Assembly (NCBI GenBank): GCA_016342285.1 | Contig: JAEINQ010000023.1 | Span: 1-64,000 of the forward strand | Length of the DNA stretch: 64,000 bases | From: Desulfobacterales bacterium | GTDB lineage: Bacteria > Desulfobacterota > Desulfobacteria > Desulfobacterales > JAEINQ01 | Direction of reading: 5' to 3' | Shown: one piece after another, positions 41,776 through 44,253 of the stretch | How positions within the stretch are numbered: the stretch's first letter is position 1 | Layout: every line of letters begins with the position of its first letter | Translations under genes and position numbers: made by a program | The notes under the pieces: generated by a model | Seen by the model: only the letters and a program-made list of their open reading frames with translations | Database searches by the model: none | What the model was told of the DNA's origin: nothing

Positions 41776-44253
41776 ATGGATTGTTGCCTGTCCCCCCACG
41801 AACAAATGCTCCAGGACAAGATCGAAGGTAAACACAGTAAATATCGCGAATCCCATGCCCGTGTTTTTGAAATCCTCGACACCATCGAAGGGTTGCAGCC
41901 GGTCATCGACATTGAGCGTGCCCAATACTTCACCGAGTCCATGCGCAAAACCGAAGGCGAAGCCCTCATCCTGCGCTGGGCAAAGGCCATGAAACACATC
42001 GCTGAGAACATAACGGTTTACATCGACGACCATCAGTTGCTGGCCGGCCGCGCCGGTGTCCAGGGGCGCTACGGTATCCTGTACCCCGAGCTCGACGGCG
42101 ACTTCCTCGGCAAGGCAATCGAGGAGATGCCCAAGCGCAAATCCCCCTTCTCCCTGTCTGAAGCCGACGCCAAGGTGGTCATTGAGGAGATCGCGCCTTA
42201 CTGGAAGGGCAAAACCTACCATGAGGCCCTGAATCAGGCCCTGCCCGAGGACACCCATAAGCTGACCTACGACGATCCTGACGGCATCTACTCCCGTTAT
42301 ATCGTCAACGAGACATCCTCGTTCCGCAGTGCCCTGCAGTGGGTGCACGACTACGAGAAGGTCCTCAAACGCGGCTTCGGTGGTCTGCGCAAAGAGGCCC
42401 GGGAAAAACTCGAAGCTTTAGATCCGCTCTCCCCAACGGCCAACACGGAGAAGAAACCCTTCCTGGAAGCCATTGTCCTGGTATGCGACGCCATCATCGG
42501 CTGGGCCAACCGCCATGCCGCGTTGGCGGAAAAAATGGCCGCCCAGGAGACCGACCCCCAGCGTAAGGCCGAATTGGAACTGATCGCCGCCAACTGCCGC
42601 CGTGTGCCCGAGCATCCGGCCCGCACCTTTCATGAGGCGGTCCAAAGCCAATGGTTCATGCAAATGTTTTCAAGAATCGAGCAGAAAACAGGCACCATTA
42701 TCTCCAATGGCCGTATGGACCAATATTTCTACCCTTACTATAAAAAGGACGTGGAAGCCGGCATTCTGGACGACGACAAAGCCATTGAGCTCATCGAACT
42801 CATGTACGTGAGCATGGCCCAGTTCATGGACCTTTACATCTCCCCCAACGGCGACGCTTTCAACGAGGGTTACGCCCACTGGGAAGCGGTTACCATCGGC
42901 GGCCAGACCCGCGATGGCCTGGACGCCACCAACGACCTGACCTATCTGTTCATGCGCTCCAAACGCGAATTTCCCCACCATTACCCGGACCTGGCGGCCC
43001 GCATCCACGCGCGCTCCCCGGAACGTTTCCTGTATGAAGTGGCAGAGACCATCAAAGAAGGCTCCGGCTTTCCCAAACTGATCAATGACGAAGAAATCAT
43101 TCCCCTGCATCTGTCCAAGGGGGCGCAGTTTGAAGAGATCTTCGACTATGCGGTTTCCGGATGCGCGGAAGTCCGCATGCCCAACCGGGATACCTACACG
43201 TCCGGTTGCGCTTACATCAACTTTGCCGCTGCCCTGGAGATGACCCTTTACAACGGCAAAATGCTCAAGTACGGCGACAAGCAGATCTCCCTTGAAACCG
43301 GTGACCCCACTGACTTCGAAACCTGGGATCAGTTCTGGGTCGCCTTTACCCAGCAGCAAACCAACTTCATCAAGCACGCCTTTATCCAGCAGTATCACAT
43401 CATCCGCCTGCGTCATGAGCACTTTGCTGCCCCCATGGGCTCTGCCGTACACGACCTGTGTATGAAACACTGTCTGGATCTGCATACCCCCCAGATTCCC
43501 GAAGGGATCAACCTGGGCTATTTTGAATGCATCGGCTACGGTACGGTTGTGGATTCCCTGTCGGCCATTAAAAAACTGGTCTTCGAAGAGAAGAAGTTGA
43601 CCATGGCCGAAGTTATCGAAGCGATCAAATGCAACTTCGAGGGCAAAGAAGACATCCGTGCCATGCTGCAAAATGTCCCCTGCTACGGCAATAACGATGA
43701 ATACGCCGATACCATTGCCCGAGCCATCGACAAGGTGTCCGTCTCTTTTACCAAGGAATATTCCAAAGAACTGGGCGTCCACCTGGACTTGCGCTACGTG
43801 CCCTTTACCTCCCACGTGCCCTTTGGCAAAGTGGTCTCGGCCACACCCAACGGCCGCTATGCCTTCAGCGCCCTGTCCGACGGCTCTTCAGCGTCCCAGG
43901 GCGCGGACCACAACGGCCCGACGGCGGTGATGCTGTCCAATTACACCACAAAGAACTTCGACTATCGCAATCGTGCCGCGCGGCTACTCAACATCAAATT
44001 CACCCCCAAGTGTGTGGAAGGTGAAGCCGGCACGAAAAAACTCGTGGATTTCATCCGCACCTTCTGCGACCTGCGCCTGTGGCATATCCAGTTTAACGTC
44101 ATTAATGCCGCGACCTTAATAGCAGCCCAGAAGGATCCGGAAAAATACCGCACCCTGATCGTGCGCATCGCCGGCTACAGCGCCTACTTCTGCGATCTGT
44201 CCAAAGATCTTCAGGATGATCTGATTGCCCGACATGGCCATGAAACGATCTAA
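41776..44253 (+). CDS. islA: Glycyl radical enzyme, predicted isethionate sulfite-lyase
   Basis: Glycyl motif RIAGYSAYF (G800), thiyl Cys GCAE (C463/E465), R184/Q188, W369, R673/F677, all at constant -5 offset from recalled IslA numbering; adjacent activase, TRAP and BMC genes. Confidence 0.88.

Follow-up and report, generated by a model that had tools for sequence, protein, structure and literature searches.

The question raised by the glycyl radical enzyme (GRE) gene at nt 41776–44253 (+ strand) of the window, a 64,000-nt stretch at the start of contig JAEINQ010000023.1 from a Desulfobacterales bacterium, is whether its 825 aa product is an isethionate sulfite-lyase (IslA/IseG), and what the surrounding genes add to that reading. 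The original prediction had proposed conversion of isethionate into acetaldehyde and sulfite, on the basis of eight active-site residues matched to those of Bilophila wadsworthia IslA. Indeed, R184, Q188, W369, C463, E465, R673, F677 and G800 were all found in the ORF (8/8), and in the alignment each of them shares a column with its counterpart among the residues mutated in B. wadsworthia IslA (R189, Q193, W374, C468, E470, R678, F682 and G805; PMC8473560). Both the IslA numbering used and the single constant offset of −5 were therefore correct, even if the offset adds little beyond the residues themselves, since the two proteins align almost gap-free in that region. Every catalytic or sulfonate-binding residue mutated in B. 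wadsworthia IslA is conserved, including the GRE triad (thiyl C463, base E465 and glycyl G800) and the sulfonate ligands R184, Q188 and R673, a trio also present in HpsG. Over the full length, identity was 73.0% with D. vulgaris IseG (5ymr; 1408 bits), 68.3% with B. wadsworthia IslA (7kq3; 1331 bits) and 61.4% with HpsG (6lon). The GRE paralogues of the same genome are 28–34% identical to the window GRE and do not carry the residue set, with R184 and Q188 missing. Three clustered GREs on another contig of this genome (C42; L004, L005 and L007), approximately 32–34% identical to IslA, are possibly alkyl-/arylsuccinate synthase-like.

The main alternative is an HpsG-type enzyme, which cleaves (2S)-2,3-dihydroxypropane-1-sulfonate (DHPS) to hydroxyacetone and sulfite by the same chemistry. 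Seven of the eight active-site residues recur in the crystallised HpsG (6lon), the sole difference being an I in place of F677, and the seven thus signify a C–S-cleaving sulfonate GRE and not isethionate as the substrate; the eight residues alone were accordingly rejected as proof of an IslA. The signature remains far above chance, given the 73% and 68% identities and the paralogues devoid of it, but it is not IslA-specific; the original prediction had set it against IslA only. Even Q193, for which uniqueness to IslAs was once claimed, has its equivalent in HpsG. Position 677 taken together with T305 and T307 separates the two families better. F677, T305 and T307 were invariant in 119 IslA-like database proteins, and R-Q-W-C-E-R-F plus T-T was read in every one of the 78 named IslA loci whose gene was readable. 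In 118 HpsG-like proteins, on the contrary, I was found at 677 in 105, A at 305 in 103 and A at 307 in 110, and the same columns likewise read I plus A-A in HpsG-type genes from six related-phylum genomes. The window GRE carries F-T-T and none of the HpsG-type I/A/A residues. It does resemble HpsG at A186 and L187, where 5ymr and 7kq3 have S and I; L187, however, was found in 68 of the 119 IslA-like proteins too. The window GRE also lies above the published minimum of 62% identity with characterised IslAs (PMC6386719), a threshold that is not decisive because HpsG itself is 61–63.5% identical to the same IslAs.

Genes of the F-T-T IslA type were also observed in six loci (L027, L031, L033, L035, L044 and L080) bearing Telmatospirillum, Acetobacteraceae and Planctomycetaceae labels, for which MAG binning errors are possible; most of these loci are without the amidohydrolase gene described below. 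Two further GREs, approximately 50% identical to IslA (L128, nt 9431–11866; L129, nt 8838–11285), keep R184, R673 and the C/E/G residues but have Q188 replaced by Ala and either I or V at 677; they form a sister group with its own activase.

In a tree of 38 GREs, the window GRE fell in an F677 subclade with Desulfosarcinaceae, Desulfacinum, Desulfosporosinus and others, next to the subclade of 5ymr, 7kq3, D. piger and O. alaskensis, whereas HpsG formed its own clade (support 100) leaving the window GRE outside. CutC-type relatives scored approximately 445–514 bits against the window GRE, compared with 1331–1408 bits for IslA/IseG. Clustering with CutC, diol dehydratase or HpsG, any of which had been named as evidence against an isethionate lyase, was thus not observed, with the caveat that a tree grouping the window's subclade with HpsG was not rejected by the AU test (p-AU 0.33). 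The F677 group lies on one side of a branch with a support of only 64. Given this support and p-AU value, the sequence favours IslA without proving it, and the tree was set aside as proof of identity.

The automatic naming of the protein would point the other way. NF048011, an NCBIfam equivalog named for the DHPS enzyme ("(2S)-3-sulfopropanediol dehydratase"), matched the window GRE at 1557 bits, over a cut-off of 1000. Proven IslAs receive the same name at comparable scores (5ymr 1559, 7kq3 1503 and O. alaskensis 1588 bits), as against 1514 bits for HpsG. As proven IslAs score as high as HpsG, the model has no power to separate the two; its name for the window GRE was rejected, and the same overlap explains how it spreads to isethionate lyases.

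The gene context was then read against the isl cluster of B. wadsworthia. Next to islA, a radical SAM activating enzyme with ferredoxin-like Fe4S4 domains (islB/iseH, nt 44381–45355, +) was assigned by NF048010 (472.7 bits, cut-off 430) and by the Pfam Radical_SAM and Fer4 families, and it lies beside islA in 69 of 80 named loci. A TRAP transporter, the putative isethionate importer, is encoded on the − strand by a dctP-type solute-binding protein gene (nt 39714–41003, start uncertain; NCBIfam TRAP_S1, 56.3 bits, cut-off 50) whose homologues also sit beside islA, a dctQ-like small membrane subunit gene (nt 38973–39584) between dctM and dctP, with homologues beside islA in 11 loci, and a dctM permease gene (nt 37639–38955; Pfam DctM, 217.7 bits). 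A sodium/calcium exchanger family gene (nt 36414–37478, −) separates them from a sigma-54-dependent activator (nt 33657–35156, +), a candidate regulator of the locus with PrdR/NorR/NifA-type matches and homologues near islA in 44/80 loci. TRAP transporters and shell genes have been reported beside IseG, and isethionate binding has been reported for one of these TRAP binding proteins.

Further downstream, the + strand carries a shell operon. It encodes an EutQ-like putative acetate kinase (nt 47610–48329), whose NCBIfam EutQ match is below cut-off (112.8 of 193), a phosphotransacetylase (Pta; nt 48389–49393; PRK09653, 351.7 bits, cut-off 310), an EutM-like BMC-H shell protein (nt 49407–49730), a PduS/RnfC-like electron-transfer protein (nt 49818–51164; NCBIfam rnfC, 253.8 bits, cut-off 245.95), a PduT-like BMC-T shell protein with two BMC domains (nt 51169–51723), two more BMC-H proteins (nt 51817–52167 and 52179–52499; Pfam BMC, 76.8 and 94.1 bits), a BMC-P vertex protein (nt 52619–52903; Pfam EutN_CcmL, 90.6 bits), an acylating acetaldehyde dehydrogenase with an encapsulation-peptide-like N-terminal helix (nt 52931–54352; PRK15398, 633.7 bits, cut-off 403) and an ATPase-fold protein with Pfam PilM_2/MreB/FtsA matches (nt 54345–55178), called EutJ-like from the type of locus. 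No EutT-like gene was found at the locus. An IslA-type GRE with its activase, BMC-H, BMC-T and BMC-P genes and an acylating aldehyde dehydrogenase are thus all present, and all BMC-domain genes of the genome sit here. Judged by its genes, the locus is a GRMguf/isl microcompartment locus as in B. wadsworthia. It has in common with the cluster of that species (PMC8667426) the acetaldehyde dehydrogenase, Pta, EutQ, PduS- and PduT-like proteins, shell proteins and an amidohydrolase, and is distinguished by one BMC-P, three BMC-H, the adjoining TRAP transporter, the EutJ-like gene and an amidohydrolase tail that is helical and not of the PLPFxPF type. In B. wadsworthia, IslAB and the acetaldehyde dehydrogenase were concluded to be located in microcompartments. 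Among the IslAs compared here, no consistent terminal extension separated those of shell loci from the others, and the idea that IslA itself bears an encapsulation tail was rejected. The definition of GUF loci reportedly goes back to Zarzycki 2015.

Sigma-54-type −24/−12 elements were found upstream of islA (nt 41578–41593, +, one mismatch), of the amidohydrolase gene (nt 46916–46931, −, one mismatch) and of the shell operon (nt 47495–47510, +, no mismatches, as in the relative L010). The total over the whole window is at chance (5 found, 4.6 expected), so that information lies only in where the elements sit and in how far they are conserved between loci. Allowing one mismatch or none, the motif was present upstream of islA in 50/75 loci against 0.6 expected, and upstream of the amidohydrolase gene in 14/51 loci against 1.0 expected. 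From these positions we infer that islA, the amidohydrolase gene and the shell operon may be co-regulated by sigma-54.

Taken together, F677 with T305/T307, an identity higher to IslA than to HpsG and a gene context in which TRAP transporter, activase, acylating acetaldehyde dehydrogenase, Pta, EutQ and shell genes match the B. wadsworthia isl cluster make an isethionate sulfite-lyase the best-supported assignment of the window GRE, one that we regard as very probable and that agrees with the substrate and products first proposed. What the window GRE shares with 7kq3 and 5ymr comprises the eight residues, T305/T307, the full-length identity of 68–73%, the activase and the TRAP transporter; what sets it apart is its separate F677 subclade and A186/L187. 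A DHPS lyase is unlikely: the features in common with 6lon amount to the seven residues, 61% identity and, putatively, the release of sulfite, whereas the neighbouring acetaldehyde dehydrogenase and shell genes fit acetaldehyde as the product, and HpsG, for which hydroxyacetone is the reported product, was described in B. wadsworthia outside any shell-gene cluster. Somewhat more remote is a related C–S lyase acting mainly on another short sulfonate, or with broad specificity. The window's subclade had no in-vitro-assayed member among the sequences compared, and two pocket positions are unlike those of the crystallised IslAs; yet all the isethionate-contacting positions tested by mutagenesis are conserved and the locus is syntenic with tested isethionate clusters. 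Also in line with an isethionate lyase, a strong IseG band was reported in isethionate-grown cells of Desulfitobacterium hafniense, a member of the Bacillota, and its Bacillota relative Desulfosporosinus falls in the subclade of the window GRE. A CutC, diol dehydratase or other PFL2-type GRE, although of the same superfamily and matched by the TIGR01774, CutC and HypD models, has a negligible probability and was refuted by the alignment, in which the pocket residues match IslA and the sulfonate ligands R184 and Q188 are missing in CutC, with every such model match below its curated cut-off (CutC 522.9 of 1050, HypD 541.2 of 1100).

According to the isethionate lyase reading, the enzyme is of a known, oxygen-sensitive radical type. 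IslB would install a glycyl radical on G800, from which a thiyl radical would be generated on C463; this would abstract a hydrogen from the carbinol carbon of isethionate, with E465 accepting the proton of the hydroxyl group and R184, Q188 and R673 holding the sulfonate, so that sulfite leaves and acetaldehyde forms. KM values of 6–45 mM for isethionate have been published for IslAs. Acetaldehyde would then be oxidised by the neighbouring acylating dehydrogenase and by Pta, inside a protein shell that would contain the toxic products, and sulfite would pass to DsrAB, encoded elsewhere in the genome. Indeed, dsrA and aprA are both present, which makes it probable that the organism reduces sulfate and sulfite; an estimated assembly contamination of 8.5% lowers the certainty for genes on other contigs.

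The window GRE adds a member to a family already known, and its locus is of an established type. Less is known of the amidohydrolase-fold protein encoded between islB and the shell operon (nt 45745–46740, −, likely start 46689; Pfam PF04909, Amidohydro_2), for which the description of the B. wadsworthia cluster gives no more than the prediction of an amidohydrolase. Downstream of the shell operon lies the gene of another Amidohydro_2 protein, distinct from the first (nt 58901–59872, −). The former gene lies within the stretch compared in 40 of 80 named islA loci. At the level of the phylum, 14 of 398 genomes have it and 14/14 of these also have an IslA- or HpsG-type GRE, counts that are not independent because the genomes belong to only five genera. 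In four genomes copies were found beside HpsG-type genes, and these form a separate, tail-less clade (support 99). The protein is accessory, being absent from 13 of 25 IslA genomes checked, a set chosen as having no copy near islA or as controls.

Canonical metal enzymes of the Amidohydro_2 family carry H-x-H on strand 1 and a catalytic Asp on strand 8. In the homologues of the window protein, DFRFRP and ASAHPF are invariant at these two places, and the metal motif was not found. Ordinary metal-dependent hydrolysis therefore looks unlikely, R-F-R-P replacing H-x-H and ASAHPF standing at the position of the strand-8 Asp. The best structural and sequence match, at 30% identity, is the TIM-barrel protein BB4693 of Bordetella (3irs), which likewise has R-x-R-P for the metal motif but, unlike the window protein, no tail.

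This C-terminal tail was predicted as a low-confidence linker of approximately 15 residues (279–293) followed by a helix (296–311), the layout described for encapsulation peptides. Tails differ in sequence among loci, with helical kinds such as DLVGDIVREVMARM in the window and a PLPFxPF type in Bilophila-like loci. In a first set, all of the 14 proteins from loci with shell genes had a tail of 28–58 residues, and 20 of the 23 with no shell genes in the stretch ended 1–4 residues past the core (Fisher 1.1e-7 for the two groups). The three exceptions (L023, L067 and L071) have a PduT homologue elsewhere in the genome (51–55% identity), and among nine genomes lacking local shell genes, taken as tail-less cases or as controls, seven had no PduT homologue or, for L053, only more distant ones. 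In a second set of 12 genomes, the seven with a tailed protein encode a homologue of PduT on that same contig (60–66% identity in five, 44% in G417 and 37% in G410), and the five with a tail-less protein had none, or only homologues of 41–44% on other contigs. On the core tree, no fewer than three changes are required to account for the tail, and in one sister pair L085 has both tail and shell genes and L087 has neither a tail nor PduT. The hydrophobic moment of the tail helix was high (0.47) but did not significantly exceed that of shuffled versions of its residues (p 0.09), and the helix was thus not accepted as amphipathic on this measure; the case for an encapsulation peptide rests instead on tail position, on the correlation with shell genes and on the resemblance between the tail helix and the N-terminus of the aldehyde dehydrogenase. 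These correlations suggest that the amidohydrolase-fold protein probably serves as a cargo enzyme in the microcompartment lumen, within GRE pathways that release sulfite.

Since versions of it sit with both lyases, it may act on what IslA and HpsG make in common. The IslA pathway (acetaldehyde) and the HpsG pathway (hydroxyacetone) share sulfite plus a small carbonyl compound, and the carbonyl–bisulfite adduct to which these two products give rise could, as a guess, be the substrate, the conserved Arg replacing the usual metal ligands. As a tentative proposal, held with low confidence, the protein would be an unrecognised enzyme of glycyl-radical C–S lyase pathways, which its C-terminal targeting tail would bring into the isethionate microcompartment and which would perhaps act on joint products of the IslA and HpsG types.

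Isethionate lyases supply sulfite to anaerobic respiration, leading to H2S, and the locus places a complete shell-type isethionate pathway, by its genes, in a relative of Desulfosarcinaceae that probably reduces sulfate. For the family, the published active-site residues do not part isethionate from DHPS lyases, a distinction made better by F677 plus T305/T307, and the NCBI model that names isethionate lyases is misleading.
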